Shown here in pieces: positions 17,481-58,934 of a stretch of DNA of 64,000 nt; positions within the stretch are counted from its first letter, which is position 1, and every line of letters starts with the position of its first letter. Location of the stretch: assembly GCA_018389105.1 (NCBI GenBank), contig JACATO010000333.1:248001-312000 (forward strand). The letters are read 5' to 3'. The stretch comes from Nautilus pompilius. Its lineage: Eukaryota; Mollusca; Cephalopoda; Nautilida; Nautilidae. A program made the position numbers and the translations under genes. The notes beneath the pieces are model-generated. The model ran no database searches. It saw only the letters and a list, made by a program, of their open reading frames with translations, and was not told where the DNA came from.

Positions 17481-18960
17481 TTGTTACCAACTAAATATCA
17501 TTATAGGTAATCCCCTGATAACTGAGTTAGTTTGTTTTGCAGCTATTAAAGGAAAGGGGAGGAAGGAAAGTAAAGTTTTAAGATTAGCATTTAAGTGGTT
17601 TTGTAGACCCATCCTAGAGAAAGATTTTATCACAAATGTGACATGAGAGATGACCACCTTCCTCTGTCTATATTTAACTTCTATGGCAGTCATAACTTGT
17701 TCAAAATTGTGAGCTCCCTGCTTACGTCTTTGGGGGGCATTGGAGTTAACGCTGTATTTCATCAGGTTGGATTTCAAAGTATCTTATATATAGTAGCTTT
17801 TGGAGCCTGGAGTCATGAATTTGGCATGTGACCAGTCTAACAAAGTTCAGCTTTGGTAATGATAGCTTCAATATTGGTAGATCCAGTTTTTGAAAGAATA
17901 CATACATCGGTTTATGATCATCCCAGGAAATTTGAAGAATTCTGCATAAAGAGAGCTAGTGGACATGCTCAAGAGTTTAAAGATGCCTTCTATAAGTAAC
18001 TCAGATCCCCTCAGAGCCATGGAGGTTTGAGAGAACTACAGAATTGTAAATAAATGGTACATGGAGTCCTTTTTCATTGAAGACATGGCCTCTCAGGTGG
18101 CCAAAAGTTGCTGAAACATCATTAATACAAAGTAGAATGTCTTTGATGACTGTTAATGGTGGAAAAGCTGGAGTACCTGGTATATGTTGATAAATCACTG
18201 TTTTGCAGAAACCACCTAGGATCATTTGAAGATTGCTTGCAGAATGAGCCATGACTGTGCAGCTGTCAGCATATTGAAGATCCATGATCATGGTGGTGAG
18301 GACTTGACTGCAGGTACCTTATGGTAAATTTTCCATTTGTATAGTACCTGATTTCTATGCCATAGGATAAATTGGCAGTAGCTTGGGATAGTAAAGCTGC
18401 AAGAAAAGAAGCAGATGGTTGATGCAATGACACTTTTTGCCATAGCCCAGTTTTGATGGGAAAGGATTCAAACTAGAGCCCACTGTAGAGTACCTATCTT
18501 CCTCTCATGTTGTCATAAAGCTTCTGGAGAGTTTTCCATAGTCTCATTGTTCACTGAATCCTGTTCCTTGGTAAGATCAATAAATACCATGTATAAATCA
18601 TGGTGCTGCTCTTGACACTTTTCCTGAAGTGATTCTGAAAATATGTTATTAGTTCCCCCTAGCAGGTCTGAAACCATTTAGGGTTTCAGGAAGTCTCTCT
18701 TCTGATAGTGGAAGCAGGCAATTGAGAACAATTCTAGATAGAATATTCCCTACTACTGAAAGCAGTATACCACCACAATATTTGCCTCTAATTTCTTGCT
18801 TTTTTTACTTGGTTATTTTGTTTGCAAGGTGGAGATTGTTGCTAAGGGCTTGTGCCCAGTTCTCATTTGGTCCAGCAGCCTTATTATTATGCATCTGTTA
18901 TACTTTCTTGAGTTGTCTAGTTGTGTTGAAGTATCTGGTCAATTGCTTTTTTAACTAAAA
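17480..18960 (-). pseudogene. LINE (non-LTR retrotransposon) reverse-transcriptase remnant
   Basis: On the minus strand, 18600 down to 18500 reads as a broken DLYMVFIDLTK-like motif followed by ETMENSPEALRQH-like sequence, and 18291-18200 reads MDLQYADSCTVMAHSASNLQ. These fit the RT fingers motif (FIDLTKAFDTV) and the catalytic box (QYADD) of Jockey/CR1-type LINEs. The second catalytic aspartate is replaced by serine (YADS). The 17777-17484 part has an HNFEQVMTAIEVKYRQRKV-like stretch at the C-terminal side. Stops and shifts throughout. No 5' or 3' end was located. Confidence 0.6.
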
Positions 18961-27595: not shown

Positions 27596-27601
27596 TTTAT
27601 T
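27596..27601 (-). terminator. Polyadenylation signal of the ARM-TIR-SAM gene
   Basis: AATAAA on the minus strand, 71 bases beyond the TAG at 27674-27672. It predicts a 3' UTR of about 90-100 bases. Confidence 0.5.
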
Positions 27602-27671: not shown

Positions 27672-27770
27672 CTACAGCCTCATATTGTCCAGAGCTGACG
27701 TAAACTTCAGAATATCAACAAGGGTCATATTCAGCTTCTTCTCCAAACAATGATAGAAAAATTCTGGTGC
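27672..27770 (-). CDS. ARM-TIR-SAM gene, exon 13 (SAM C-terminal helix and stop)
   Basis: After the AG at 27771-27772 it reads APEFFYHCLEKKLNMTLVDI, then LKFTSALDNMRL and TAG. This is the long last helix of the SAM domain. Confidence 0.85.
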   Translation of the reverse strand, partial: APEFFYHCLEKKLNMTLVDILKFTSALDNMRL

Positions 27771-30700
27771 CTATCAAAAGAAATAACATAACTATAATCC
27801 ATTACTTATACGCAAAGCAGTTGTCAAAATGTGTTATTTTTTATATGAAAAAATTTGGAAACTAAGTCAACTTACTTCTTTCCTCATCTCATTAAGCTGT
27901 AATAACATTCTTCCATCAAAGAGGGAAAATGCCTCAACACACCTTCAACAAATAAGATATTTTACACATGTAACAGGTTTTCATTCTGTTTTTCTTTTAA
28001 CACCGCTAACAGCAACATAACTAACAAACCATTCTGAAAAGTTTGCAGAAAATATCAAAATAAATATTTAATTATGTAGATTTAAATAAGAAACTTACTA
28101 ATACAGAATACACAATAAAATAAGCATTCATCTAAAAGGTAAAAAAAAAACAAAAACAAAACATTATATATGTATATTTTCATATATACCCATCTAAATG
28201 ATGAAAGTGGAGCCACCGAGAAACCTCCTCTTTTGACATAACAGGAACACTTGACATTCCCTGACCATCACCATTTAAATCTGCTTCATATGTTGAAGTC
28301 TGCACTCCATAAATAGCAGAATCATGGTTTTCACTTGATGGACCATCATATGTTACTTCCTCTGAAAAAAAAAGTGACTAGTTAGTTATGCTAAGTAATG
28401 TTTATCAAACAATCTTACTAAGCTAGGACAAATAATTTATTTCAAAAAATCACACTGCATACCTCCTATAATACATGCAATTCATAAGGATTTTAGTAAC
28501 TTTTCATCATATTTAACAAATCACCCTATATCCATCACTACTATTTAGCCAGTATTCTCATTTAAAGTAGCAAGTGCAAAGACCATAAAGTTTATTGATA
28601 GGCTCACCAGAGCTCTTTAAAAACTGCTGGGCAAAACCTTACCTCTATTTCTTACATTAATTGCAATTATCTGTCACAAATCTGATTCCTAGCATAAGAA
28701 TGACAAAGATGAACATAACAATCACTCACACTACCTTCACTTGTGATTGGTGAGTGCTGTCCCCTGCCTCGCAGCTCTTTGACAAGGCCAGTAAAACTTT
28801 TTTCAAAAGCAACTTTGCCGCTAAAATCAAAGTACAGTTTAGCACCCAACATTGTTGCAAGCCATCCATCAGGATTGTATTTTTTTTGCATCATTAGAGG
28901 AATATAATCTTTTCTTAATCGAAATATGTATTCTGCTTCTGAAATAATAAAAAAGAAAACATTTTTTGTGAAATTCCACACATACTAAATTGGCAAAGTC
29001 TTCATAATTATTTAGTGAAATGTGCTGTCTATCTTGCAAACATCAATGTTTTCCAGCAACTTAGTTGAGATTTTGATTTGATGTATGTCATTTTTTCCAA
29101 CTTTCTGTCAGAGACATTATTAGGCAAATTCAATTAACCTCATTGCATTCTGTCAGTTAAATATTTGACATAATAACACATTTTCTGGTGATTAAATGTA
29201 AAATAGTAATGTTTTTTAATAATTATATACAGTTTTCCCCCGGTATTTGGCGGGGTTACGTTCCTAGAGCACCCACGAAGAGTGAAAAACCGCGAATATT
29301 GGACGTGGTCCATAAAAATGCCTATAAATGTCAAAATATAATAAAAAAAATATAAGTAAATATATAATAATAATTTAATAAAAAACACTCAACGGAACAC
29401 TCGAGATAGCTACACTCAGTAAATTGGGATGATGCTGGGCTGCATCTGCCTGAGACAGCGCCTCGTGGGCAGCAGCCAATCAGCAGCGAGGAGAAATGAA
29501 TAACGCTCTCGGATTGGCTACTTTCAAACTTCCAGCCAATAGCATTTATTTTATATTGATATTTTGCTGAATTTATGTTAGTATTTATATTACAAAATTA
29601 GTAAATTATATTGTTATTAATAATTTAGCGTTAAAAAGCATGAAAAAATATATATTGCCACGGAAGAAGCCATAAAAAAATTGTGGAAGATATTTGCGAT
29701 TCTGCGAATATGCGGGGGGTTCCAAGAACAATTATTAGTTAGGTTCTAAGAAAAATTTCGCGAATAACCGGGGCCATGAATGCCAAACCGCGATTATGCA
29801 GGGGTAGACTGTATCACTAAAGTATCCTTAAGAAAGTCAATAAATACCAGTTCTACAATGTGGATTCTGCTTATATTTCTCAGACATGCATATTAAAACA
29901 ACAGCAGAATCATCAGCAGCTTCAGCCATTACAGGCAATGTACATCCACCTACATGTTCTACATCAATCCACACTTGATAACCTTCTACCTGAAAATAAA
30001 ATAAAATTCTTGTAGAAGGGGGAAATAAATAGTTATTTCCAATATTTAACTTTCACTTTATTTCACAGGTTTGAAAGCATTAAAATGTGAAAAGGAGGGG
30101 GAATGCTCCAGATAAATTTTGGTGCATTGAGACATTTTGGAGAGGCCTGAAACTTTTCAAAACAGCATTTATCTTGATGTACATTTAAAAACAACAATCA
30201 ACATCTAACTGATTAAAAATTTCACATGAATTGGTTCAGAACTTGCAAATATCATTCTTTTGGATTATATGATTGTAATTATTTACAACAAAGTTCTTCA
30301 CTAGTATACAATCCTAACTAATTAATAAACATGAATTAAAAAACTAGCTCCTGATAAATCATTGGGTTTTCATCAAATCCACTTCATGATAATGTGCACT
30401 GAATCAATATTTATACATTTACAGAAGGTTCATTGAAAAGTAGTTATATCATTAAACATTTTCTAAAAAAATTTGTAGTCCAATAAAATCTTGAATATTT
30501 TTATTACAAAATTTTCCAACCACAACATTCTTTCCTACAACAATAATATCTGAGATAAATATGCAATTCAAGCCAATACTATTGACACAGGCAAATGAAA
30601 ACGTCACCACAGTTTGTGCAAGATACTTGCTGGTGGACAAATGGACCTGATAAAAGACCACTAAATTACATTATACTTTTACTTTTTAAAACTCATTTAC

Positions 30701-33700
30701 ATAACTTAACTGATTTTGTCTGCTATCAATTCAATCAGAATTCTTTTAATTTAGTGTTTTCAAGCATACACTACTGTACAATTTTGAGGTCTTCAACTGA
30801 GGCTCACCAGACAACTGCATGCCAGCATTCACATAATTTTTGAGGTATCTTCTTTTTTTTTAAAAAGAAGTTTGAGGTAAGGTTTTTCATTACTTCTTTT
30901 ATTTGGATGCTTACTGTTTTTCCCTACTTTTAAATTTTAATTTCATCCAACCAGCAATTCACACAATATTTACATTGTCAGCTTGTTAAGACTAAGAACA
31001 AGCAACTCAAATGCATCTGTATTTACTATTAAAAAAATTAATATATAAAAGAACTAGCCACTGCCTAGTGTGATCTAATTCTCCACAGATTTACACTAAT
31101 CTAACAAATAATCTGAGAAGAAAAAAAATCTAATGGTAAATTCTCCTGCCTGTTAGGAAAGCTGCAGCGATCTGATATTTATGTCTATGGAAAGGACAAG
31201 AGTTTTCCATAACATAACATAAATATCATAAAAACAGTACTGGAGTTTAAAGTTTATATATAATTTCTCAGTTATGTGCACAAATGACATCAAATTTCTA
31301 GGCTAAACTAAAGTTAAAGTATCAATTAAAAAAATAATAAATACACTTTTCATGTGTAAACATCAATGTTGCAGGATAACTTTAAAAATTGCATTTTCTA
31401 CTTGGTATCTTAGTAATAAGTTGCTTTTAATAAAGTAAAAATGAGTATTAAGTAAATTATTTCTACATCTGGAAAGCCAAATTAACAAACCAAACACAAA
31501 AATACCAAAGATATACATGCCAAGAGTAGCAAATTTTTCATGATCATTTATTTGTTGATATGCTGTATGTCCTATGGTTAATTTTCCAATAATACTATAC
31601 AAAACAATTTTAAATTGAAATTAAGCTTGCAAGTTTGACCCTATAAACATCAATGGTTGTTAACCAAAGAGTATTTTCCTGGTTATATCAGATTAAACAT
31701 GCTAAATATTTTATGCATCGGTTTCCATTGAGTTCTCTGGTTTCCTCAAACATCTGAAAATGAAGAGTCCTAGTAGAGACTTTCACTTGTGGCCTTCAAT
31801 GCTGAGAAGTGGTTGTGCAGTATGTAGAGACACAATCCCTAATCTTGTAATAAAGGTAGGTTATTTATTGTTTTAATATACTCTTTCTTTATTACTAATC
31901 AACATGAATTATCAGGAAAGTACAATGATCATAACAAACTAAAAAAAAACCTTAAATCATAGTGTTTCACTTTCATATGCTAAGGATTCAATATAAGCAG
32001 ATGATATAATACCTTTAATCTTTCTCTAATTTTCATGATTGGCTCACTGTCACCCCAGGAGTAGCTGATTAAGATGTGACCCTTGTGTTTTGGTCCTAGT
32101 TTGTTTTCTGTCAAGTAATTAACACAATAATTTGTACATTCATTATATATATGTATATCAACATAAATACTGAATACAGTAACCTAAGCTTTGTTGATTT
32201 CCATATTATCATATGCTACTGTTTTGTTTTGTTTTTTCATCATCAAAAAGTGTTTTTAAACAAAAATTTACTTGCAGTATTACTTTTTTTTTTAAAATCT
32301 TCATGTCATATAAATTTGATGAAAAAACATTCATTTTTTGTTGGTATTCTTTACTCAAATTCTTAATATTACAAGCCAATTTAATTAGGACACATGTACC
32401 TGCTTTTACAATTTACATATAACTTTCATGTTTATTTGACTGAAAACTAAACATTTTCAACATTAACAAAAAAGTACAAACTGTTTCTTTAGTACCTTTA
32501 ACAATAATAATTGTTCTCACTGTAAATTTTAATTGCTCTAAGCATGCATGAATAATTAGCTTCATATACTTGCTTTCGAGCTTTGTTACATTGTTTCCTC
32601 CTCTCAGAATCCAAAGTGCTCCCTTAACATTTGCTTTCACTTTTTTCTCTTTACTTTCTTGAAGTTTCTCAAGAACCTCTGTAAAGCCTTCATATTCCAA
32701 AACCTTTTCAGTGACTGATTTATCAAAGCTCAGGGTCCACAGCATTCTAGCAGCAGAAATCTGTTCTCTTACATCATCGTGCTTCAACATCCTTAACAGT
32801 GATTGCAGAATTCCTCCATCAACTATCTGAAACATAATTTCAAACTAATTTAGTTCCTTTCAGTTTTGCCAGAACTCCTCCCTTCTTTACATACATCTAG
32901 ATGATTGGCTTCTTGCTCAACTACAAGCTTTTTTTTTTTCATCAATGTGCTACGTATCTCCTTGGTCATCTCAGTTTTATCCTTAAAACAGAAACTTAAT
33001 CCAAGCTAGCTAGCTTTCTGTCTCTCCAAAACAGGCCGAAAGTGCACTCAACATGGTATTTTAGACAATTTTAAAATGCTTATCTGGAAAGAGATTAAAC
33101 CTATCTGAAACCTTAAGGGCTTCAATGATCCCAATTTCTTAACAGTTAAAAATATAACTTTTGTTGCTATCATCAAAATAAAGTCAAAAAGTAATAATTA
33201 AGTATTTCACACTAATATTTAAAATTAAAAATAAAAACAACAAACAAATAAACTCACTTAATTCCAACCACTCAGGACCATCTCACAGATTGCAATAAAA
33301 CAGAAATTTCTATAAAGCAGGAAACAACAACAAAAAAAAATCAATGCTGGCACATTACAATCTAAGAAGAGAGTTACTTAAATTTCTACAGGATAGCATC
33401 CTAAAAATTAAAAAAAAAAGTTTGTTTCATGAGTATCATTTATGCAGTAAAAAGTCAATTTTTTGTTTTGTTTTGTGCATAAAACTCATCAAATGTTTTG
33501 CTACAGTTTGACTCTATCTTTGATATTTTTAATTTTCAGTTCTGGCTCATTTTTATTTACATACTCTTCAGCCTTTGTTACTAAGTCTTTTGAGAAGAAA
33601 TGATTTCTGCATCAGTTTTCTCTGCAAATGTCAAGATCATCCATCAAAACAAAAAGACCAAACTATGCCCCCCCCCCTCAAACTGCAGGGAATTCTTTCA

Positions 33701-36700: not shown

Positions 36701-39700
36701 CATGAACATAAAAGTTTAGTGGTCTTTATGTTCTATGTGGAAATAATTTTTCCTGCACATAACATGCAAAACATGCCAAGGCTTGCACCACAGTGACAAA
36801 GTATGCAGTAGCATATGTATGATAATGATGTCCTTTAGTAACATTTTATAATAAAACAACTTAATTTTAATTTGGAGATGAAAATCTGTAAATTATTGTC
36901 TCACAAAAGAATCTGCAATCTACAAAAACCTGTATACCATAAAATGCAGTGTATTATACATGGTTTTTTTAAAGAAAATTTACCCTTTAAATATCAGACA
37001 TCACAGACTCCCCCCCCCCCAGATTGCTGGGGCCATTGCTGGTGACAGATGAGCGAGCGATAATATGTGTGTGTACATTAGAAAATCCCATGTGGCAATC
37101 TGACTGAATATCAATAAAAGATAATTGTTCGTGTCTTATTTTGTGTGTTTTGGGGATCATTGATATTGACAATGAAATGGGTAGAAACAGAACAAGGAGT
37201 TCATACTGAAACTCCAGTAAAATTTAAGCACAAAACCAAAAACACAAGTAATATTTAAAAAAAAAATTAAATTGGAATTTGATGAAATTGATAAATATAA
37301 TACAGGATAAATGACATGCATTGATATGATGTACATCTTGATTAAAATGCATCAAATTCATTCCTGCTGTCTCCACTGCAAGAACTGTTCATCAGTCATG
37401 GTAGCAGTTATGTCACAGTAGATATGTTTCTGCAGCCTCATCATCCCTTGGCTCAGACCACAGGATGTCATCTTTGGTTCCGTTCATGGCATTGGACAGG
37501 CAGCACCCCAGCATGACTGTGAAGCAGATCTTCTCATGGACATTCGTCTTCATGGTGATGGTTTTCGACCCAATTGGGGCCACTGTGCTGTTGCAGGGAT
37601 GGTCAAACGTCATGAGAATCTGGTTGGCATTCCCTATGTGACTCAGGGGATAGTCATGTTGTTTTCTCAGTTTGATGACAAACTGTTGATACCTCAACAG
37701 CTGATTTTCATAATCATCAGGTAGCTTCTGGATGATGGTGGTTCACCAATGCATGCTCAGTTAGTTGTGGGGCATGAAGCATGCGCACTATTTCTGAGAT
37801 GCCTTAAAGTCAGGCATAGATTGAGTTTTGTAGACAGAAAGGTGTGCATGCATAGCTTTGTGGTGGAAACCCCGTCACTGTGCATGCGCTTTTCAGTGAT
37901 AAAGGAAAGTACTTCCTTCTCAAGCTTGGGATAGGCTGCACCCTAGCCCCTATCAGTACATTTTGAATACTGCATAGCTTCGATCTTCTCCTAAGAACAT
38001 CGCCAGGACCTAATGTTGGCCTTGTTCACTAAGAACCTTCAGGCTGCAGCTCTGTTGCCGTGTTCAACTGTATAGCTAATCATTTTGAGTTTATCTCTGA
38101 TAGTGTAGTTCATACATTGTGTAGGTTGCATGGTTGTGAAAGAGTATTTAGAAACATGGACTGAATGAAGATTATCCTTGTGCGGAGTTTATATACATGT
38201 TATCGTAATACTTTGGTCACTTCACCATGCCGTAGTAGGCGAGGTGGTGTAATAAGCGAGGGTGGCATAGTAATTGAAATGGAATTTTTTCATGAAGACC
38301 TTTGAATGCCATGGTGTAATATGCAAGATATTCATAAAACCTGATTTGTGCATTCTGGTCACTTGGTTTACCACATCACTACTGCAGCTGAGAGAGTAAA
38401 TTTTTCGGATTTTTGTGAAACTATTATGTATGTCCCATAAAATATCTCCACATTTAGTTTATTCTGGGTAGCCCCACTAAAGGAAAGATGTTTAATTTAT
38501 CAGTCAATTTTAAGTTGAAGATGGTCATTTGTCTGTTGTATAACACCCATTCTCCTTCAGGTTAGCTCAATCTGATGGCACTTGAAATACGAGCTGAGTA
38601 TGCCTGCATATTATAATGGGAATTATATGTTTTTGGGGGTTTTTACAGATCAAAATTGGAGTGTGTATTATATATGATAGCATATAATACATGGCATTTT
38701 ACGGTACATGAATTAATCTAATTTTACAGTATTATGTTTGTAGGATATTTAAGTTTACTTAAACTATTATGATAAATATTTGTTTGTATCTTTAAAAAAT
38801 ATATCATTAATATACAACATCTAAATTTTTTTATTACTAAAATTTTTTTCTAAAATTCAACTATTTGTTATCACTGCAGTCAGATATTCTACATCTGCTG
38901 GAGACAACCCTGGTGATGGAATGAAGTGTCATAGTTATTTTCTAGAAAGTGTTGCATATCCTGTACCACAAGGTAATCTGTACTTCTGACTTCAACAGGA
39001 AAAAACCTACTAGAACTCTTCACTTTTAGCTGTGGAAGGAAACCCCCACAACTGGCTGGTGAAGAAAAGTAAGAATAAACTATACCACGAGGTAGATAAA
39101 AGTGAGCAAACTCTTACTGGGAAACTAAGGCTCTTGGCCATGTAAATCCAGTAGTCTAACTACTCGGCCAATAGCAAATGATAATCAGTGTTTCTCTTAC
39201 TTTCATTTTGTTGTTGTCATTAACTCCAAGTTTGTTCAGTCCTTCTACAAGCTCCTGTGGTGTAAAGCCTTTGTACCTTTTCTTATTACTGTCAAGAGCC
39301 TTTTCCAACCATTGCAGTAAACACTGTATTGTTCCTGAAAACAGGAAATATATTCCCAATTAACATGCCAGCATTGTGGCCCAATGTTGGGCCAATATAG
39401 TTTGTGGAAAAACTCACATTGTAATGGTAGGCCGGTGCCAGTACAAAACGGTATATCACCAGCATTGGCCCAATACAGGTATGTTTGTTGGGTTACAAGA
39501 CAAAAACATTTATAGTGTCTGTAAGTAACTGTCAAATGTAACTCTTATAACAACAGATCCATATCTTGTATGTGAAATGATACACTAATATACAGTTGTA
39601 AATAAGATATTTTACTGCATCCTCTGATCAAAGTCTATTTACCAGTTTCTTCAATCAGTGCTGCATTATCTTCCTCTTCTACAATATAGGCCATAGTTAA

Positions 39701-42700
39701 CATGCTCAGAGCTTTGAACATCTCATCTTTGGAAGAAATGAATGGCTGAATCACCTACAAATATAAAAATTTGAAAAATAAGAATATTGCCTAAATTTAT
39801 GCCACTTTTAGTAAACAATATAACAGACATAAATCCAATGATTTGATTTTCCAGAAACTTACCTGAATTTTTAATAAATGATTTAATTTCCATTTAATAA
39901 TTAATTCAACAAAAGACTCAGAAATATATTTTGCAGCTATCAGTTGCAGAAAGGGATTCAAATCCAGTAAAATTATCTTAAATTTCCATATAAAAATGCC
40001 AATTGATAGTACTTTTTTCATAATCAATCCAGTAAATTAAAATCTTTAAATCAAAATTTCAAATTTGTACATTTATTTCAGTGCTAAGTTCTCCATTCTT
40101 AAAACACCAGCACATACATTTCATAGATCTATTCTTTAAAGATAAAGTTCAATCATGAGATTTTACCAGCACTGTTAATATAAAAATAATATACAATAAA
40201 GATGTCATAGATCGATATCTCAATTAACTCCTAAATACATAAAAGCTAAGTAAAAGAAAGAACCATTTTCTCACCTTCATAATAAACCATATTCTAACTT
40301 GTAAAAGAAACAAAACAAAACAAAAAACTTTTTTTTTTCACTTAAAAATGTTTCGTTGTTTTTAGGTTAAAAGGTTTTGGAAAAGATCTTTAGATTTCTA
40401 TCTGAGTAACAAAAATAAATGTACATAAAGATTCCATATAATATTTTTATTATTATTATTATTATTATATTACATATTATGTGCCCCCTTTTAATGTATT
40501 GTCTAACTTCTTGCACCAGATCAATTTTCTGAGAACAACTAAGTAATACCAAAAAGAAAGTGAGCAAATTCTTTGTCAAAGTTACCTGCTCATGAAATAG
40601 CTGAATTTATTATTTTTCAAAAATACTCTGAACAAAATATCTTAATGTAAAATAGTTTGCTTTTAGAATTTAAAAAAAAAAACTGGAACAAGTTATTAAG
40701 CAATTAACTTTTTCCTTTCTAAATTTGTTTCTGAAATAAAATTTTCATGAATTGAGAGGCTTACAAATAGTTTTTACTTGGGTATCATTTCAGTAATATG
40801 CTGCTGCAACTAAGAAATGATAGAACTTAATTTTTTTTATCTTTAATTACCATCAAAATCAAACTTAGTACTATTTTGTTGTATTCCTCTTAATTTTATT
40901 TCTCTTTAGCAGTTATGCCACAAGAACAAACAGCAGTGAGATTTTATATTTATTTAATGCTATTGTTACAAGAAGTATTAAACCCAATAATGTCAGTTTA
41001 TACATTTTGTAAAGGAAAAAAGTTTGATTATATATCAGAAAAAGGGCATTTTTTGTTTTGCTTTGTTACATAAATCCTTTTTTGGACCTGCTTAGTAAAT
41101 AAAAAAAACATTGAAAAACTAATGTTACTTACCTCGTATGTTTTTTGATCTTTAAAAAAATGCCTTATTGATGGATTCTTTGCAATATTGTGTAAAATGC
41201 TCAGAGATGCTTTGATTATATAATATACATTCTAAAACAAAAAAGAAATTATCAGTAGTAGTAAATATTCAAAGAATATTTTTTCTAATTTTGTTTCAGG
41301 TGCAAATAAAAGAGTCAACTTTTTAACAAAAAAAGTCACCACTTATGAACAGCTCCCAGAATCCATTGCAACCCCTCTTAGGCAAGAACGACCTAGTCAC
41401 AGAGGGTGGATGTCTCAGTAATGAAATTCACAGAAGGCTGTCAGTGGTGTTTGGCTATCGGTATTTATCCTGATCCAAAGCATTTGAAATAGTGTGCAAG
41501 ATTTTTGGACAAGCATAAATAATAATCTGTGCTAATAATATTGATGATAGTTCTATCAAAATACATGGAATTGCTGGTTTGAGCAAGAATGTCAGTTACA
41601 ACTAGCACCTGTTTTTTAGCTTGATGGATGCCAAAGCAGGTAAACTTTGATCAGAAGCTGGGACTGCATTCTTTAAAGCTAGAGAATGGAAGAAATCTAG
41701 TTTGCATGCTCAAAATGAAAAATAAAGTTTACAGCATAGTTAACCCTCCATTGGAAATGTTACGGTGTTTTAACATGGACTGCCTTGCATGGAAAGACTA
41801 TGAAAGTTTCTTAGTACTCCACATAGACTTTGCTGAATGGCATGCAATATAGAAACTGTCATAAGGACTGATAGTGTTTTATTTTAGCCTAACTAACATC
41901 TAGTGCTCATAAGTTCTTAATCAAAATAAGAAAGATCTAACAAAACTATACTGAAAAATAAACTACCAAGTTAAGAAATAAGTCAAAAAGAATAAAAATT
42001 GTCAATGAATGCCTTCTACACTCCTTGTACAGCAAAATAAATCATACTCAACACATCAAAGAAATCATTAAAGAAATTTAATTTAATTAAAAAAAAAAAA
42101 CAGAACACAGTCGCCCCCCGCATAATCGCGGTTTGGCATTTTTGGCCCCGGTTATTCGCAGAATTTTCCTTAGAACCTAACTAATAATTGTTCTTGGAAA
42201 CCCCCGCATATTCGCGGAATTGCAAATATCTTCCGTGATTTTTTATGGCTTTTTCCGTGGCAATATATATTTTTTCACGCTTTTTAACGCTAAATTATTA
42301 ATTGCAATATAATTTACTAATTTTGTAATATAAATACTAACGTAAAATTCAGCAAAATATTATATTAAAATAAACACTATTGGCTGGAGGTTGAAAGTAG
42401 CCAATCCGAGAGCATATTCATTTCTCCTTGCTGCTGATTGGCTGCTGCCTACGAGGTGCTGTCTCAGGCAGATGCAGCCCAGCAGCCCCACATCATCCCA
42501 GTTTACCGCATGTGCAAGGGAAGGCTAAAAAGGGATCCCTATATGGTTCGGTCTCTCCAATTTAAGAATGCCATCGATGCTGCCATGCAGACATATAAAA
42601 CCACCCTCACCACCATGAAGAAACAGTGACAGCAATTTCCCATCACAATGTTCCTCAAGCCCACCAAGAAAGCCTTGCACGAAGATACGACTCCGCCTGA

Positions 42701-45700
42701 AGAAGAGGCGCCACCTAAGGAGCTTTAAATCCTCTGCTTTGCTGTGCAGTCATTATCTTCATTGTACTGCAAAGCTTATTCATCATCATCTTCAATCAAT
42801 ATCATTCATTCATTATTGGTGAGTACCCGTACATTTTGCTGTATTTTTTATTAAATTATTATATTTACTTATATTTCTTTAATATATGTTACGTTATATT
42901 TTGATGTTTATAGGCATTTTTATGGACTACGTCCAATATTTGTGGTTTTTCACTCTTCGCGGGTGCTCTAGGAACGTAACCCCCGCGAATACCAGGGGAC
43001 AACTTTATAAACTAATCAGGTAGTGTTATATCTAAGTAATTCTTTGAATGAGTGAAATCTGTAAACATCCAATATAGAAAAAGGTGTACTAAAAAATTAA
43101 GTAAAACATTAAAAAGAATGTAATAGAGCAATGTATTTAGTAGTACAGATGCAGTTGCATACTTTAACTCAATTTACCGCTTGAGTGCTATCTTTGACAT
43201 TGTAAGGACCATTATAAACATGTTTAAATTAATAACTATTAAAAACATTGTTTAGCTGCAAGGGTCACACACACTGATGGCTTGCCTTTTCTTTTTGTAC
43301 ATATCACGAGTACTGATGGTTAATACTCTTTATTTCCAGAAGGCATTACAATAGGTAAGGAAGGAAAAGTCACCTAACTTGTTTCATCCTTTTCCATCCT
43401 AAAATATTTTAATAATTAGATGCAAATAATCTCATATTTATACTGACACATTCTATTAATAGAAAAAATTATCGGTTAATAAAGCTATCTTGTTTGCTCC
43501 AGGTATAGTAATACTTATTAAAAGAAAAAACTAAAAAAATCTTTTCTTGAAAAAATTAATTTTGCCAGCAGTAAAATAAATTTGTAAATATAACTCTAAT
43601 TCTGAAATAATGATATTTGTTTTTTGAACTTAAATATGGAGGATGTAAGGCAAAACCTGTTTCAACACTAAAAACTGACATATTTTAGTTACTGGGTTTT
43701 CTAGATGGTCCGAAAGAGATAGTGTAAACAAATGTACTGACAAATCAAGTTTCACATAGGAGTTTTATTTCCTATTGCACCACTTTAAAAAAAAAAGTTA
43801 AAATTGTTGACTACAGCATCAAAGAATCAGGTCACAATGTGTGCCAATTTTCAGTAAAAAAAAAAAACAGTTTATGCTGGTAGTCAGATGGTGATAGATA
43901 GAGCAAACACTCAGTACAGTGAACCATGATCCTCTTGTGATTCCAGCTGGACTGCAATTTTCAGGAATCACTGTCAAATAGGATATCCCATTGCAGTATT
44001 TCAGTAATGACAAAATAATGGTTGGAAAATTTTTGGTTAAATACAAATGGCTTTGAATCAGCATTCTCAGGTTTTTAGATTCAAATGCTCTCAGAGACAG
44101 GACTAGTATTTGGTATAACAGATGTCAATACCAGTATGCATTCTATTTGACAAAATTTTCAGGATGCTGGATTAAGTGTAAGGATGCCTGTCATGTAGCT
44201 ACTTAAGGATACTGGCATACAGTTCATATTTCCAAAACTAGAAAACTAAAGTTCTATACCTATGAATACCCATTTTGCTGTTTTGACAATGGCACACAAC
44301 ATGTTTACAATAAGGTGAGAAATTTGGCAATGGCACAGCTCATGAACAGAACTGCTGTAAAAGCAGCTCTGTGATGATATAGGGACTTGTCTCATTAACA
44401 AGTCCATTGCACATTTAATGAAGCAGTTTTGTAGGCACCCAATATCTGGATGAAATTCATTAGACCACTTCTTGCAAACATATGACTTGAAGCATCCCAC
44501 AGCAATTTAATGCCCACCCCAATTGAGTGGTGGTGGTAAAAAAACTTTCTATAAAGGGAAGGAGAGAAACTTTCCTGACTTAGCAAGAGCTGTCTACATC
44601 AACTACAAATTCCTGATGTAATAGGATAACAGTCAACAGGAAGAAATCCAGAGGATTGTCAACATCATAATTCAGCAATGTCTTGCCTATCTAAACATGC
44701 TAGAGAGTAATAGATTGACTAGAAATTTCCAGTTGTCATTATTGCACTTTTGAGCCAATCCCCTCCTTTGTCTTTCATCTAACTATACATGCATTTATTT
44801 TATCAACAACTTGTAGATTTACTTTAAGGAATAAACAAAAGTTTGCTTCTAAAGAATAAAATGGATTAAGAAATTCACACATTATAGAGTTAGTCTTGAT
44901 AGATTATTGTCAAATTGTTACCTGTAATGATTTCTAATAACTGTTTCAAACCTATTGCATTATTTCTCAGTAATTATCATGCTAGTTTTCAAATATTTGT
45001 TTTTTCCAAAAATATTTTTAATTTTCAAGGAACAGTAGTTAATTCTTGATACAGTAAATGCATGATACAAGCTTTTTATTAGCATGGCAAATATTGTTCA
45101 GAAGATATATTAAAAACATTTTATTTTAAAAAATTGTTACCACTTACCTTACTATGAAGTGCACTTATATAAGGTTTGTGTCCACAGTTTAAAGTTAGCA
45201 ATCTGACAGCATCACAATCTGCAAAACTCTTAATACAAAAATAACAAATCAATGACATATTTCTTTCATTTTTATTTTGCTAAACCATCGTTCCCAGAAA
45301 AAAAATTCATTTCACTAATGAGCTAAAGAATTAATTTATTCAAATGATTTTTGTGTGTATATGTGCAAACTTATATTGCAGAAAACAATATCTAACAGCA
45401 GCTGCAATGTTGACCTTGGTCTTTCTTTAAATTCAGTTTCTAAACCTATCTTGCTCCTTCCTGTACAATGTGAACCATATAACTATGGTCTTATAGAGGA
45501 AAAACCATAGAGAATCCTTTCTGATTAATGTGCAAAAGTACATTCATACCAGCAGGTGTGGTAAACAAGAAACAAACACAAACAGTTAGTGAACTACGAC
45601 TATGTGATAATCGTCACAATTTAAAGCATGTATTTCTGCCTTTAATTTACAAAAACATATTTTATTACCATGCCTTTTTGGCTCTAAAGAATAGTTGTCT

Positions 45701-48700: not shown

Positions 48701-51700
48701 GGCATTAAGGTACCATCAGACTGGCCACTTCCTGGAGAAACCTTGTTCAGGTCACATAAGAATTACAACCTCCATGAAGACTATCATCTTGTCACCCTTG
48801 TCAGAAGAAACAATTTTTTGACAGCATGATCTCCAAAATTACTCTCTAATGATTTACCAACCAACCAACCATCAATTTTGACCATAAACAATTTGTAACA
48901 GGTTTCATCAACAGATAAGCATGCAATGGATAAAACACCATCACAACTGGAAATTGAACAAGTAGCACCAAGTACTTTTTACAGGTGAGTCTAGATTCTG
49001 TCTAGACATCAATGATGGATGATAGGCTAGAACCAGTAGATAACTGGGGTATACTTTGTTAGCATTGTCATTACCACTTACGGCCATGATTGATTGATGG
49101 GGATAATCTGATTGTGTGTGTGCAGACATTCAAATTGGTTGAAGAACTGATCTTATCATTAGGAGTGATGCCATGCTTGGTTTCAGATACAGGAATAAGA
49201 TCATTATACCTGTAGTCATCCCTCTGGCCAAATGGCAAAATCCCAATCTTCATCTTTATGGATAACAATGCCAGTCTACACCATACACATCAATGCTGCA
49301 GTTTGGGTCCATGATATCATTTGTATGTTGTGCCCTGCAAGATCTCTAGATTTAAATTCCATTTAACATATTTTGGGATACTTAGGCTCACAGTCTCTTG
49401 ATCAACTGGAAGTAACTCTGGTCTGGTAAAATTATGGTGCAGCATTTCAGAACAACACCTGAATCATCTGGTTTAGTTGATACCAAGATACATACAAACT
49501 TGTGTTGGGGTTAGTGGTGATCACAAACATTATTAAAATTTTGTATGCCCTTCATTTTGTCTGATCATTTTTAGATTGCCATCATTGCATTTTGCCTGCT
49601 CATCTCAGACAACTACTTTTTTTTTCACCCAAAAATTTAACTTAGCTTCCACTGCCATTTTTTTTAAATGGAGAATTTCAATCAGTATGCAGGTCCCCTT
49701 CAACCACTTACGTACAAATGCTATGGGCTTGATTGTTTTTTTTTTGTTAGTACATTTACTTTAATTAAAATTATTACTTACCAAAGACAACTTTGTACTG
49801 GCATCAGAATAATTCCACATTGTGTTATATGCATAATATGTTGGGAACCACACATAGTCATTTTTAAAAATTCCAATTGTGTTTAGTGATTTCAACATTT
49901 TTACTGTAATACCTGTTAAGAAAATAAAAAGTGGTTAGAAAATACTTGTTCATTTATACAATTTTTCCTGATTAACCTTAACAGTATGGTGTCAGTGCTA
50001 CTAAAATTAAAAATTGAAAATGCAATTTTAAAATAAAGTTAAGATACAGTATATTAAATAAAAATGAATAATTTATCAAAACAAAATAAATTAGTTGCAG
50101 ATAAATATATACAGAACCTATGTGGGTGGTAATGGAAGAGGATTCTCATGATGAAAAGTAATTTTTCTCTTGCCCTTCCTCCAAAACTATTAAATTTAAA
50201 GATTTATCTGGCAGCATTTCCTGCAATAGATTCTTAAAACAAACATGGGAAATTCATGCCTTTGTTTTCAGGTATGAGCAATAAACAAACAAACCCAGAT
50301 AGATAGGTCCAATTTAATTTGTCTTCCCTAGCCAGATCTCATTTTTTTTTCTTTTAACTTGTCCATTTTATTCATCCAGGCCCATTTTCCATTTACTATT
50401 AACAGTACTTTCCAGTGATTTAGTACTGTGATTTTCATCCAAAAATGTTGAAATTTTGAAAAATAACATTATGACTAATAGTATGGTACCTATATAGGCC
50501 TTTCATTATGTTTGGACTGCTTTATGATTGTGACAGTCAACATGAATTTGAATTTTTGTTTTGTTTTTGGTGTCCAGAAATAAAAATTCTAAGAGAAAAA
50601 TTCACCTCCATTTAACCCGTGAACTATATCAGAGCTAATCCCTAAAAGGGGGGGGGGGAGAACTTGCATGTATATTTCTTTTCTGCATCCAACCAATTGA
50701 AAAACATTTGCTGCTTATCAAAAATTACTTGTGTACTTGTCATAATGCTTTTATGCAAACATCTGGAAAACTCTTTACTGATGAATTCAACAATTACTGC
50801 AGCTTACCCCACGTGAAGTCAGAAATCCTTAATTGTTTCTCAATGGTTGTACACAACTATTGTAGACATTTTATTGATTTCAAATAAATCTGCATGCATT
50901 CTCAAACTTTGAGATTAAATATTTATGATAAAACACTATTTTCTTATTCAATGCAATTTTAAAAAATGACAGCATTGGTCTATAATGCACATCAATACTG
51001 TCAAGTTTTAAGATACCACTAAAGAAAATCATTATTAAATTGTTAAAGGAATTACTAATAAGAAGCCATGAACCTGTGCTATAGTTACTAAAGATAAAAG
51101 TAGATTGGTTGAAAGATTTTTAAATGATTTATGTTTATACAAAGTACTTGATTTTATTATGGTATCTTTATTTTAACTTCCCCACCTTTTCCACTGACAG
51201 TATTTCTGTTAGGTTGGATTTATAAGTGCATAAGAACAATAAATTGAAAAAAAAAAAATCAATGAATAAAGCCAATTAGCTTTTTTAAAAAATTAATCAA
51301 CGAATAAAGCCGATTAGCTTTTTTTTTTGTTTTTTGGAGGGTTACAATACATAAAAAAATAGCATTCCAAGTCTCAATATAAATGAAACTCAAAATTGTA
51401 AATCTTTACTATACTTTAAAAAATTGATTTTAATGTTAGTTTTTTTTTTAACATTTCTGTTTTGGCAGCCATTATGACAAAGAAAAACAAATGGCATCTT
51501 CAAAGCCAAATCAAAATCCTATTTCATGATGTAATATATATTTTCAATTTTTTTAACCAAAGAAGAAAATAAATTTGACATAAGCACAATTAAATACTTT
51601 CAAATTTTAAAATCCTTTTCTTCAAACAATTAAGTGAAATTACTTAAAATGAGAATAAAACATAAACAACAATAATAATAATTTTTAGTTTAATTAATCA

Positions 51701-57700: not shown

Positions 57701-58934
57701 ATTTGAAGTCAGTAAGCCTAATTAACCCTTACAGCATTCCGTATTTTTAGTGCTTAGTGCCATATTCTACCAATTTAATCTGAAATGTTAAAATTTTCTG
57801 CCAAAAGCAACCCATATGGCTTTGCCAAACATTGCTTCCATCCAGCTGCATCTAAAATTAGCCCAGATACCAGCAAGCAATGTCAATGCATAGGTAACAA
57901 TGTACAATGTATGTTGCAGCTATTGGTTCAAATTTGTATGTAGTTTAAAGCAACCTCACTCGTTGACTGCTGTTAATAGACATATTGAATGGAAAAATTG
58001 CATTGTTGATAAAGGCATACTTAAACATTAATTTTATAGCCTCATTCTGACACATTTTTTTGTGGGCTATATAAATCTCTAGTCCATGGGCAATAGTGTT
58101 TCCATGCCTGTCTTAGAGGACAAGTATTACAGTATCTTTTCTGTGCATCCTGAACAGGTATTTGTTGGCTTCAAATAGTTCTTTCTAATCCAGTTTTAAT
58201 TCTTTCAAAACCTAACTCGTTCTTGAAAATGGTTCATTTCTACTAATTAATTCACTGATTTTCAAGCTCTACTAATCAGCAGACGTAAAGTTTTGGATAA
58301 TGCTAAAACCTGAAGTTATATCCAAATATGATGTTTTCCACAATTTCCCCAAACAAGTACATCTGAAGGTTTAATAAAAGTGAAAAGAATTAACCATAAA
58401 CAGAATCTATAAAACTTTTAAAAAATTCATTTTCAAGTTATTGCATAAAATAAAGTTTTTTAAAAATTATTCTAATGAACTGAATAATCATAATGATCAC
58501 AGACAAAAGAAAATATTGGTAATTTATTTTTTCCTAGCAGTATATATATGTGACAGATTAATAAGCACTAACAGAAATTTTAGCATAAAACAACTAAATA
58601 AATTTAAATAACTTACTTGCATATCCCTCAGAGCTCAATGTATCTCCAACAGCTGTTCGCCAAGATGTGTAATCCCAGTAAAAATCTCCCAATTTCTTCT
58701 GGATCTTCATTCCTTCTCCTTTATGGAATTCTTCTAACTTCTCTAGTTCATGAACAAGATCTGAGGCCATTTCTAACACTTGCTCCAAGGACAAACCTTT
58801 TTTACACATTATTTCATCCAATTTTCCATTTACCTGTAGGTTTTGATTAGGTGAGATATTTGAAGACTGAATTTCATTGTTAGTACAGTTCTCCATGGTT
58901 ACATCTAAAGTGTCTTGCACACTCAATGGCCCAT
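27672..58934 (-). CDS. ARM-TIR-SAM protein, probable NAD-consuming immune/cell-death enzyme (13 exons; 5' end not found)
   Basis: Exons, 5' to 3': 58934-58617, 49912-49782, 45228-45148, 41231-41133, 39754-39643, 39334-39201, 32826-32574, 32107-32013, 29989-29848, 28938-28735, 28361-28190, 27942-27876, 27770-27672. Every junction keeps phase; 634 residues are visible. Residues 1-106 are a helical lead-in ending DYTSWRTAVGDTLSSEGYA; 107-372 are alpha-helical ARM-type repeats (QISAARMLWTLSFDK; ANVKGALWIL); 385-506 are a TIR domain (GHILISYSWGD; YQVWIDVEHVGG; CRTEAEY); 568-634 are a SAM domain (VSRWLHFHHLDG; EAPEFFYHCLEKKL). Glu455 in C-x-x-E is where NADase TIRs such as SARM1 carry their catalytic Glu. 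ARM-TIR proteins are common in marine invertebrates. SARM1 has ARM-SAM-SAM-TIR; here SAM is last. NADase activity and ARM/SAM roles in inhibition and oligomerisation are inferred. Confidence 0.85.
27876..27942 (-). CDS. ARM-TIR-SAM gene, exon 12 (central SAM helices)
   Basis: A 67-base exon between TATTTGTTGAAG and GTAAGT. It reads CVEAFSLFDGRMLLQLNEMR, the middle helices of a SAM domain with the usual D-G-x-x-L-L core. It restores phase between exons 11 and 13. Confidence 0.85.
28190..28361 (-). CDS. ARM-TIR-SAM gene, exon 11 (linker and SAM start)
   Basis: Between TTTTTTTTTCAG and GTATAT. An acidic, Ser-rich linker (VTYDGPSSENHDSAIYGVQT) leads into the first SAM helix, MSKEEVSRWLHFHHLDG. 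Confidence 0.85.
28735..28938 (-). CDS. ARM-TIR-SAM gene, exon 10 (TIR C-terminal half)
   Basis: It begins after TTTATTATTTCAG with AA, completing Glu455, and reads AEYIFRLRKDYIPLMMQKKY, NPDGWLATMLGAKLYFDFSG and LVKELRGRG. Phase selects a GTAGTG donor at 28734; a stronger GTGAGT six bases downstream of the exon end would shift the frame. Confidence 0.9.
29230..29811 (+). mobile_element. Pogo-family MITE, short copy 1 (582 bp)
   Basis: Flanked by TA on both sides. The left end is CAGTTTTCCCCCGGTATTTG; the right end reverse complemented is CAGTCTACCCCTGCATAATC. It is colinear along its length with the copy at 56.7 kb and is the inverted, shortened form of the one at 42.1 kb. It contains inverted CCAAT motifs (AGCCAATCAGC, GGATTGGCTAC, CAGCCAATAGC) and no coding capacity. 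It fills most of the 909-base intron between exons 9 and 10 of the ARM-TIR-SAM gene. Confidence 0.85.
29848..29989 (-). CDS. ARM-TIR-SAM gene, exon 9 (TIR core)
   Basis: Between TTATTTTCAG and a GTATTT donor. It reads VEGYQVWIDVEHVGGCTLPV, then SAVVLICMSEKYKQNPHCRT. The phase-1 end leaves the first base of the catalytic-position Glu codon on this exon. Confidence 0.9.
32013..32107 (-). CDS. ARM-TIR-SAM gene, exon 8 (TIR strand A, box 1)
   Basis: Between TTAATTACTTGACAG and a GTATTA donor, 31 codons. It reads KHKGHILISYSWGDSEPIMK, the first beta strand and BB-loop approach of a TIR domain. Too short to show as an open frame. Confidence 0.85.
32574..32826 (-). CDS. ARM-TIR-SAM gene, exon 7 (last ARM repeats)
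   Basis: It begins after ATTATGTTTCAG and encodes two clear ARM units (GGILQSLLRMLKHDDVREQI; ARMLWTLSFDKSV; GFTEVLEKLQESK). Phase requires it to end at 32574 with a GCAAGT donor. The alternative GT two bases downstream breaks the frame into exon 8, and a GTACTA further on would add 25 poorly supported residues. Confidence 0.85.
32827..33967. other. Intron sequence with no recognised feature
   Basis: Part of the 6.4-kb intron between exons 6 and 7 of the ARM-TIR-SAM gene. AT-rich, with no coding sense seen; a run of nine C residues lies near 33668. Confidence 0.35.
33968..34620 (-). pseudogene. Tigger-type transposase remnant (CENP-B-like HTH end and start of DDE domain)
   Basis: On the minus strand, frames with several stops and shifts read QKHGISEFQPSNFKK, KANELAKEPCIKSFEALNF, RHNLDYKK, then YLPDCIYKCNETLLFYLPCL (Tigger: IYNADETGLFYKLLP) and VIRKSKNLCCLKNLK (Tigger: VIGKSKNPRCFKNV). 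This is the second HTH half and the first catalytic block. The first catalytic Asp of the ADETGL motif is changed (CNETLL). Nothing after that block is recognised here. It lies in an intron of the ARM-TIR-SAM gene, same strand. Confidence 0.7.
35480..36170 (-). pseudogene. Second Tigger-type transposase remnant (DDE domain)
   Basis: Minus strand, broken frames in order: LINFNQTGCKSIS near 36000 (Tigger-like family: NFDQTPLK), NQIDVTGLDNKM near 35920, HWNNDETTKK near 35740 (HWSNEETM), YINKVIIPYF, then VFVPASCTNELQPLDLSMNK near 35600 (VPANCTDRLQPLDLSVNK) and FIDWYSD. This is most of a DDE domain of a different subfamily from the neighbour at 34 kb. The order on the strand shows it is a separate insertion, not the end of that copy. 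Confidence 0.75.
36935..38706 (-). mobile_element. Pogo-family transposon with internally deleted transposase
   Basis: The ends are about 30-bp inverted repeats: TACCATAAAATGCAGTGTAT at the left, and TACCGTAAAATGCCATGTAT from the right end reverse complemented. On the minus strand, 38110-37930 reads YTIRDKLKMISYTVEHGNRA (pogo HTH), 37930-37830 reads YPKLEKEVLSFITEKRMHSD (CENP-B-type HTH), and 37697-37413 reads RYQQFVIKLRKQHDYPLSHI, STVAPIGSKTITMKT, FTVMLGCC and then abruptly AMNGTKDDILWSE. The last two blocks are far apart in complete pogo transposases, so the DDE core has been deleted. Several stops are present. Dead element inside an intron of the ARM-TIR-SAM gene. Confidence 0.8.
38895..39170 (+). 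repeat. SINE-like dispersed repeat, copy 3 (longest)
   Basis: It contains CCTACTAGAACTCTTCACTT, TTAGCTGTGGAAGGAAACCC, ACTGGCTGGTGAAGAAAAGT and AAGAATAAACTATACCACGA. A 3' part, AGTCTAACTACTCGGCCA, resembles the tail seen in several SINE families. It shares its block order with the other copies. Confidence 0.55.
39201..39334 (-). CDS. ARM-TIR-SAM gene, exon 6
   Basis: Between TTCCTGTTTTCAG and a GTAAGA donor. It reads TIQCLLQWLEKALDSNKKRY then GFTPQELVEGLNKLGVND, continuing the solenoid. The preceding 308-base intron is largely a palindromic repeat. Confidence 0.9.
39361..39490. repeat. Imperfect inverted repeat with GGCCCAAT motifs
   Basis: GTGGCCCAATGTTGGGCCAA at the left is itself a palindrome, and CAGCATTGGCCCAATACAGG at the right repeats it. 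The unit lies within the short intron between exons 5 and 6 of the ARM-TIR-SAM gene, starting 27 bases from the exon 6 boundary. It resembles a small MITE; the family was not identified. Confidence 0.55.
39643..39754 (-). CDS. ARM-TIR-SAM gene, exon 5
   Basis: Between TTATATTTGTAG and a GTAAAT donor; phase-1 end. It reads MFKALSMLTMAYIVEEEDNA, an ARM-type helix pair. Confidence 0.9.
40447..40469. repeat. (ATT)n microsatellite
   Basis: Seven or so TAT/ATT triplets in a row. Confidence 0.8.
41133..41231 (-). CDS. ARM-TIR-SAM gene, exon 4
   Basis: Thirty-three codons, phase 0 on both sides, between TTTTTTGTTTTAG and GTAAGT. It reads YIIKASLSILHNIAKNPSIR, a typical ARM helix with the H-N-I-A core. 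Confidence 0.9.
42108..43006 (+). mobile_element. Pogo-family element, long copy of the 29.2/56.7-kb MITE family
   Basis: It begins CAGTCGCCCCCCGCATAATC and ends, reverse complemented, AAGTTGTCCCCTGGTATTCG. It is in the opposite orientation to the two short copies. About 330 bases (42515-42830) are absent from the short copies, which join directly across this point; the extra segment carries the tail of a transposase. CCAAT-type motifs are retained. It lies in the intron between exons 3 and 4 of the ARM-TIR-SAM gene. Confidence 0.8.
42540..42727 (+). pseudogene. C-terminal tail of a pogo-type transposase
   Basis: The frame QFKNAIDAAMQTYKTTLTTM is followed by KKQ, an in-frame TGA, then QQFPITMFLKPTKKALHEDT, an acidic PPEEEAPPKEL end and TAA. 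A basic helix, then a Q-rich short motif and acidic tail fits the C-terminus of pogo/Tigger transposases. The TGA could come from a CpG-type C to T change in a CGA codon. The catalytic part is missing. Confidence 0.6.
43007..45147. other. Intron sequence, unassigned
   Basis: Part of the 3.9-kb intron between exons 3 and 4. Bases 43850-44800 are less AT-rich and give several open frames on the minus strand, probably an old transposon, but no motif is recognisable. Confidence 0.35.
45148..45228 (-). CDS. ARM-TIR-SAM gene, exon 3
   Basis: Twenty-seven codons, phase 0 on both sides, between TTTTTGTATTAAG and GTAAGT. It reads DAVRLLTLNCGHKPYISALH, one ARM-type helical unit. Confidence 0.8.
45229..48559. 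other. Intron sequence, unassigned
   Basis: Part of the 4.6-kb intron between exons 2 and 3. A 130-codon open frame (45528-45920, +) has low-complexity Phe/Leu content and no recognisable motif. Bases 46640-47700 are less AT-rich and are probably an old repeat with no readable protein. Confidence 0.35.
47613..47644. repeat. 16-bp tandem repeat, two copies
   Basis: GTAGCAGATATTCTGA occurs twice in direct succession without mismatch. Confidence 0.9.
48560..49560 (+). pseudogene. Decayed Tc1-like transposase, nearly full length
   Basis: Broken frames on the plus strand read, in order: HPCQKKQFFDS-type sequence near 48800, STDKHAMDKTPSQLEIEQVA-type sequence near 48920, a remnant of the ESRFCLDIND block near 48990 (Tc1: SDESRFCLDINDGR), and PARSLDLNSI then HILGYLGSQSLDQLEVTLVW near 49340-49430 (Tc1: PARSPDLNPIEHLWDILG). 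The order and span of about 1 kb match a whole Tc1 transposase. The third catalytic Glu position is lost at a stop codon. Confidence 0.65.
49782..49912 (-). CDS. ARM-TIR-SAM gene, exon 2
   Basis: Between TTTTCTTAACAG and a consensus GTAAGT donor. It reads ITVKMLKSLNTIGIFKNDYV then WFPTYYAYNTMWNYSDAS, the start of the ARM-type helical solenoid. Confidence 0.85.
49913..56283. other. Large intron with little recognisable content
   Basis: Most of the 8.7-kb intron between exons 1 and 2. Very AT-rich. I found no exon, RNA gene or transposon protein. Features seen are a 38-bp period duplication at 51257, a run of ten G at 50649, and poly-A and TA tracts. Confidence 0.4.
51257..51330. repeat. Imperfect tandem duplication, period 38
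   Basis: AATCAATGAATAAAGCCAAT then TAGCTTTTTT recurs 38 bases later as AATCAACGAATAAAGCCGAT then TAGCTTTTTT. Confidence 0.8.
56424..57360 (-). pseudogene. hAT-type transposase C-terminus, split by a pogo MITE
   Basis: On the minus strand, 57360-57312 reads GSENLQIELTDLQYDI, then a 585-bp MITE intervenes. The frame resumes at 56726 with LKEKSNFLKFAEFFKF, has stops, and continues LKEFGRKVLGIFGSIYFCEQ, TFSLMKRNGGELRIQMTDNH and LAAVLRVATPEFTSNIEKLV. This is the C-terminal dimerisation region of hAT transposases of the ZBED/GTF2IRD2-like type (FGSTYVCEQTFSLMK; LTDEHLQAVLRI). Upstream parts beyond 57360 are too decayed to read. It is in intron 1 of the ARM-TIR-SAM gene. Confidence 0.75.
56727..57311 (+). 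mobile_element. Pogo-family MITE, short copy 2 (585 bp)
   Basis: TA on both flanks. The left end is CAGTCATCCCCCGGTATTCA; the right end reverse complemented is CAGTCGACCCCCGCGTAATC. Same orientation and structure as the copy at 29230, with the same CCAAT-type motifs. It sits inside the hAT transposase remnant; removing it with one TA rejoins the hAT reading frame. Confidence 0.9.
57361..58616. other. Intron sequence, unassigned
   Basis: It may contain the decayed upstream part of the hAT element, judging by its position, but no motif could be read. Confidence 0.3.
58617..58934 (-). CDS. ARM-TIR-SAM gene, exon 1 of those visible
   Basis: The 3' splice site is TTACTCTTTTACAG and the donor is GTAAGT; 105 codons plus partial codons at both ends. 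A Ser/Asn-rich linker is followed by a helical segment (LSLEQVLEMASDLVHELEKL) and DYTSWRTAVGDTL. It begins inside a codon, so at least one upstream exon is missing; I could not find it in 58935-64000. The following intron is 8.7 kb. Confidence 0.8.

Follow-up and report, generated by a model that had tools for sequence, protein, structure and literature searches.

SARM1 is an ARM-SAM-SAM-TIR NAD hydrolase, in which tandem SAM domains precede a C-terminal TIR domain (mechanism: PMC8635717). Its ARM region senses NMN/NAD. TIR NADases occur in bacteria, archaea and plants as well as in SARM1 (PMC7075850, PMC8635717), and the SARM1 TIR carries a BB-loop motif, E(R/K)LEAG, and an EE-loop motif, H(D/E)YQ. 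In addition, W71 contacts the ligand, whereas the Glu at position 75 (E75) is present in more than 70% of TIRs and need not go together with activity (PMC7075850).

Invertebrates possess further TIR proteins with ARM repeats. ARM-TIR is treated as a class in the oyster (PMC4346834), a table gives 11 ARM-TIR proteins for Aplysia where the accompanying text has 10 (PMC9334734), and the ecTIR-DC proteins, hypothesised to be adaptors or regulators, are widespread (PMC6321704). A lucinid clam ARM-Death-TIR-TIR protein is assigned to ecTIR-DC family 6 (PMC6836662), an amphioxus TIR-SAM hybrid, Brafl1_131196, is supported by cDNA (PMC2575513), and 362 unique TIR_2 architectures have been counted in a domain database (PMC5094078). 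The exact order ARM-TIR-SAM was not found in the literature searched, that is, in the available text of these and similar papers.

The window considered here is the whole 64-kb stretch of Nautilus pompilius DNA that was analysed (contig C324:248001-312000). It appears to encode a protein with an ARM fold and a TIR domain, without an LRR ectodomain and without a predicted membrane span, features that define the ARM-TIR and ecTIR-DC classes, and the best reading is that the gene belongs to the invertebrate ARM-TIR class, its product ending in a probable SAM tail. ARM, TIR and the lack of an LRR ectodomain are shared with the oyster and Aplysia proteins and with ecTIR-DC, whereas a SAM tail is unmentioned in the available parts of their descriptions. 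The lucinid protein, as far as its partial description goes, likewise has an ARM-like N-terminus and a C-terminal TIR, but it has a Death domain and two TIRs, with SAM unmentioned, whereas the window protein has one TIR and a probable SAM tail. Brafl1_131196 shares a TIR joined to a SAM, and ARM is unmentioned in the accessible account of it; the two proteins are set side by side by description.

The gene and its exon chain

The gene runs on the minus strand from 58934 to 27672. Its 13 exons, obtained by a search based on splice sites and coding scores together with a reading of the doubtful junctions, join in frame into a predicted protein of 622 residues:

58617..58934, minus strand: exon 1, coding from the ATG at 58896, a helical-looking N-terminal region ahead of the ARM repeats (acceptor 9.3, donor 9.2 bits)
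49782..49912, minus strand: exon 2, helices of ARM type by eye, without profile support (acceptor 10.4, donor 8.9 bits)
45148..45228, minus strand: exon 3, a short putative ARM exon (acceptor 2.9, weak; donor 12.3 bits)
41133..41231, minus strand: exon 4, ARM repeat inside the ARM profile matches (acceptor 9.6, donor 12.5 bits)
39643..39754, minus strand: exon 5, ARM repeat by profile (acceptor 7.8, donor 6.6 bits)
39201..39334, minus strand: exon 6, ARM repeat by profile (acceptor 12.0, donor 6.3 bits)
32574..32826, minus strand: exon 7, ARM repeats, with the top PDB armadillo matches at residues 272-356 (acceptor 3.4, donor 2.2 bits)
32013..32107, minus strand: exon 8, start of the TIR with an ILISYSWGD box (acceptor 4.0, donor 3.3 bits)
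29848..29989, minus strand: exon 9, middle of the TIR with the BB loop VEHVGGC and the HCRT of C-x-x-E (acceptor 11.1, donor 4.2 bits)
28735..28938, minus strand: exon 10, end of the TIR, with the Glu of C-x-x-E at the exon start (acceptor 9.2, donor 5.5 bits)
28190..28361, minus strand: exon 11, acidic linker and putative first SAM helix (acceptor 11.3, donor 2.0 bits)
27876..27942, minus strand: exon 12, putative SAM core, FDGRMLLQL (acceptor 6.2, donor 8.2 bits)
27672..27770, minus strand: exon 13, end of the SAM-like region and stop TAG, in the half of the tail that lacks profile support (acceptor 8.4 bits)
27596..27601, minus strand: poly(A) signal AATAAA, some 70 bases past the stop

The gene looks real, with an exon chain that is predicted. 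Thirteen phase-matched exons had been claimed in the initial annotation, and they were recovered independently: phase is kept across all 12 junctions of the joined chain, without an internal stop. The start codon lies in a strong context (ACCATGG) and the stop TAG occupies 27674-27672. Eleven introns are GT-AG and one is GC-AG, the GC being the donor of exon 7 (GAAA followed by GCAAGT across the boundary), and two of the introns measure 8.7 and 6.4 kb. G+C is 0.369 in the coding sequence (0.457 at first codon positions), 0.22-0.36 in the introns and 27-35% along the window in 4-kb steps.

Exons 1, 2, 4, 5, 6, 10, 12 and 13 have strong splice sites; weak acceptors precede exons 3, 7 and 8, and weak donors follow exons 7 (GC), 8, 9 and 11. 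Because the donor of exon 7 and the acceptor of exon 8 are both weak, intron 7, which joins ARM to TIR, is among the least certain. Exons 2, 3, 4 and 8 were placed on the basis of phase, splice sites and continuation of the ARM and TIR domains. A peptide at 44973-44893 was also considered as exon 3 and rejected, having no usable acceptor and being out of phase. Since the acceptor at 58934 is strong, another exon should lie 5' of it, and none was found upstream of that position. Introns 7 and 10, which border the TIR exons 8-10, are both of phase 1, an arrangement that would fit insertion of the TIR module by exon shuffling.

The coding signal on the minus strand is strong and well above the controls. 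The best phase-consistent exon chain reached 110 bits with 16 exons on this strand vs. 31.8 bits on the opposite strand, and the best chains in 100 Markov-1 resamples of 300-base tiles had a median of 10.8 and a maximum of 34.8 bits. The 110-bit chain holds six of the 13 exons exactly (1, 5, 6, 9, 10 and 12), overlaps exons 7 and 11 and includes eight other candidates; it lacks exons 2, 3, 4, 8 and 13, the last being a terminal exon, which the model cannot represent. Since the agreement extends to six of 13 exons, this control is evidence for the gene and not for each exon.

Elsewhere in the window, the minus-strand stretches 29334-29731 (within intron 9) and 56764-57254 (within intron 1) look like copies of a dispersed repeat, sharing INxIGWxFESSQSESxIHFSxLLIGCCPxGAVSGRCSPA by eye. 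Three stop-free minus-strand pieces (56424-56678, 35491-35673 and 18001-18318) resemble, also by eye, transposase or reverse-transcriptase fragments; Pfam gave DDE_1 at E 0.096 for 35491-35673 alone and nothing for the other two. On the plus strand, 7537-7854 holds an exon-like coiled-coil frame, QEKERDLRKELEQLKNELRSRDELINQYNKM, with weak Pfam matches (best E 0.0031), which is reminiscent of the N-terminus of a cGMP-dependent kinase. A tandem repeat with a 72-base unit in two copies (97% matches) lies at 9034-9177, far from the gene, and Rfam and tRNA scans of the 64-kb window were empty.

Domains of the predicted protein and their copies in the genome

At the level of sequence, the identity of the TIR domain is certain. 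The family PF13676 (TIR_2) is matched at E 9.1e-19 with 68.6 bits against a cut-off of 28, and the match runs unbroken across exons 8-10 and their two junctions, over residues 375-492 and positions 1-119 of the 122 in the profile. The ARM repeats are well supported by sequence searches: comparison of the whole protein with the PDB returned 55 sequences with E <= 1, almost all of them armadillo, with designed armadillo proteins at the top (E 3.9e-14) and yeast Vac8 at 2.2e-6. In Pfam, ARM_PUB (E 4.6e-7, 30 bits) and ARM_ARMC5 (E 1.3e-7, 31.8 bits) fall under their cut-offs of 33 and 79.9, respectively, and V-ATPase_H_N reaches 26.9 bits with the ARM part alone, above its cut-off of 25.7, and 25.3 bits with the whole protein.

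The SAM tail is probable. At E <= 5, the C-terminal tail matches SAM families alone in Pfam, namely SAM_3 (E 0.0014), SAM_1 (0.0042) and SAM_2 (0.11), all of them below the cut-off (18.9, 17.8 and 13.2 bits against 22.6, 23 and 20.5, respectively). The SAM-like stretch is single, lies downstream of the TIR at residues 553-586 and crosses the exon 11/12 junction; the matches are confined to the first half of the tail, and the second half is unsupported. None of nine control tails (one reversed and eight shuffled) matched a SAM family, and they gave one unrelated match (Ty3_capsid, 0.086). No SAM chain was found when the tail was compared with the PDB, which returned one unrelated chain at E 0.082. 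A membrane segment is unlikely (the highest 19-residue hydropathy is 1.33), and there is no basic N-terminal leader, the net charge being -3 in the first 30 residues. The initial annotation had proposed the order ARM, TIR with C-x-x-E and C-terminal SAM, to be checked by a Pfam run on the spliced protein. In that run, the TIR exceeds its cut-off and the SAM families are matched below theirs; the ARM region, the TIR and its motif (H-C-R-T-E) were found as proposed, and the SAM stands as probable.

The gene is apparently single-copy in the assembly (727.6 Mb, 2558 contigs). When the whole protein was searched against this genome at E <= 0.01, with only the best candidates scored, the 15 matches listed consisted of 13 at its own locus and two TIR exons on contig C308, at 28-30% identity. 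The SAM part gave four matches at E <= 10, its own locus and one on C1456 at E 0.85; the latter was rejected as a copy of the tail, since it looked like chance, and no other copy was found at E < 0.8. A genome-wide TIR_2 search returned at least 28 matches, and the window gene was not among them because its TIR is divided over three exons, in line with the earlier remark that ordinary ORF scans miss the gene.

Eight TIR loci were inspected: six are Toll-like receptors by eye, and the other two (L003 and L006) form the C308 gene, in which a Death domain (E 8.9e-13) is followed by two TIR exons. This gene resembles the lucinid ecTIR-DC family 6 protein as partially described, a likeness that rests on Death and two TIRs. 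Among the Toll-like receptor genes, L007, L008 and L009 are very similar and lie on small contigs (C1964 and C1587), with some 10 kb between the two that share C1964; they may be either recent copies or assembly duplicates. Outside this genome, distant TIRs at 24-30% identity occur in two plasmid records and four phage records, and no viral contig matched the window TIR. In NCBIfam nothing was matched at E <= 1, and the PDB gave TRAF3IP2 (0.035) and Cat1 (1.3) for the TIR. Two Butyrivibrio loci were considered as bacterial relatives of the TIR and rejected; judged by eye, their frames look like those of long signalling proteins in which EGYQVWID is shared by an EAL-like stretch.

Relation to SARM1 and the NADase question

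The likeness to SARM1 consists of ARM, SAM-like and TIR regions in one protein and of a Glu at the TIR active-site position. However, the animal has a separate SARM1. The human SARM1 TIR, used as a query and identical letter for letter to a PDB chain, matches two exons on contig C363 (C363:276438-279849) with identities of 50 and 43%. Around them, phase-matched exon candidates give the order of SARM1, with an ARM-like end by eye, two SAM domains (SAM_2 8.6e-24 and SAM_1 1e-17, two stretches each) and then the TIR. An ortholog of SARM1 reshuffled in place was therefore rejected as an account of the window gene, which, judged from these comparisons, is not a SARM1 ortholog. The C363 gene is not among the matches listed for the window protein in its own genome at E <= 0.01, and no SARM1 chain appears among the PDB matches of the whole protein (E <= 1) or of the TIR (E <= 10). 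Aligned directly, the window TIR and the C363 TIR score 43 over about 35 residues, a score reached by four of 500 shuffles (mean 26.5, maximum 57), which suggests a weak similarity at the domain level, as expected of two TIRs. The term "SARM1-like" applied by the initial annotation rested on the part list, and it does not hold as a statement of relationship.

The two proteins also differ in construction. The TIR of SARM1 is C-terminal and its SAM is tandem, whereas the window protein has its SAM after the TIR and a single SAM-clan stretch. In place of the BB-loop motif, which is E-R-L-R-A-G in the C363 SARM1, the window TIR has E-H-V-G-G-C; the EE-loop motif, H-D-Y-Q in the C363 SARM1, is missing from it. 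At positions 71-75, where SARM1 has W71-x-H73-x-E75 and the C363 protein W-V-H-K-E, the window TIR reads H-C-R-T-E, so that W71 is replaced by His and H73 by Arg and E75 alone is kept. The same site is N-C-N-R-E and N-C-R-R-E in the two C308 TIRs, which have Asn there; thus, related TIRs of this genome also lack the Trp. The Toll-like receptors of this genome carry W-C-x-x-E, and such receptors are not known as NADases; W71 is therefore no proof of activity. Likewise, C-x-x-E is weak evidence for an NADase, since that Glu is so common among TIRs. The suggestion that this protein consumes NAD is thus weak: of the pocket features compared with SARM1 (W71, H73, E75, BB loop and EE loop), the active-site Glu alone is kept. 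NADase activity of the window TIR is a possibility that these comparisons leave unsupported.

A proposed role and its alternatives

The explanation that we favour, at a probability of roughly one half, is that this gene, single-copy in the present assembly, encodes a soluble protein with the order ARM-TIR-SAM that belongs to the invertebrate ARM-TIR class, differs from the animal's own SARM1 and would act above all as a scaffold for signalling, NAD cleavage being optional. From what is known of such domains, the ARM superhelix would bind a partner or ligand and restrain the TIR, and the C-terminal SAM would join several copies of the protein. The clustered TIRs might then recruit other TIR proteins, such as Toll receptors, MyD88-like adaptors or the C308 Death-TIR-TIR protein, and the whole would serve in the cytosol mainly as a scaffold for signalling, with or without cleavage of NAD. 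Candidate TIR partners do exist in the genome, namely the Toll-like receptors and the C308 gene, in which a Death domain adjoins two TIRs. Counting against a scaffold is the conserved active-site Glu, which makes an enzyme possible; the explanation as a whole is weakened by a SAM that falls under every Pfam cut-off and by the weak splice sites of intron 7.

It is doubtful, although worth weighing, that the protein is instead an enzyme of immunity or cell death that cleaves NAD in the manner of SARM1, with autoinhibition by ARM, oligomerisation by SAM and cleavage by TIR, in which the position of SAM beyond the TIR would impose another assembly geometry. All three kinds of SARM1 domain are present or probable, the Glu of C-x-x-E is in place, the weak alignment to the SARM1 TIR includes a D-V-E stretch ahead of the BB loop, and TIR NADases are spread over bacteria, archaea, plants and SARM1 (PMC7075850, PMC8635717). 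However, a Glu found in more than 70% of TIRs (PMC7075850) says little where W71 and H73 are substituted and both loop motifs are missing, the C363 SARM1 has W-V-H-K-E, E-R-L-R-A-G and H-D-Y-Q, and SARM1 chains are missing from the PDB matches of both the protein and its TIR. A related idea is that of an animal NAD-consuming TIR enzyme outside SARM1, with ARM gate, SAM oligomeriser and TIR convergently assembled in another order alongside SARM1 and with SAM clustering the TIRs from the opposite end; this we regard as unlikely.

Unlikely, too, is a non-immune regulator, for example of cell adhesion or development, in which ARM and SAM would be binding modules and the TIR an interaction surface only, or a decoy that would damp TIR signalling. 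An apparently single copy, compared with several Toll-like genes in the genome, would agree with such a role, but nothing specific favours it, and a role as immune adaptors is discussed for the ARM-TIR and ecTIR-DC proteins of other invertebrates (PMC9334734, PMC6321704). That exons of two separate genes have been mixed in the chain, or that it contains wrong exons or belongs to a decayed gene, seems improbable. The long introns (8.7 and 6.4 kb), the weak sites at exons 3, 7, 8 and 11, including those of the ARM-TIR intron, and an automatic best chain with only six exact exons in common would all be expected of such an artefact; against it stand the stop-free chain with phase kept at 12 of 12 junctions, the poly(A) signal just past the last exon, and TIR and SAM matches that run across two junctions and the exon 11/12 junction, respectively.

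As an apparently single-copy ARM-TIR protein with a probable SAM tail, in an animal that has SARM1 as well, the product of this gene lends itself naturally to testing whether ARM and SAM suffice to make a TIR a gated switch. The same protein could show whether NAD is cleaved by animal TIRs that do not belong to the SARM1 family.
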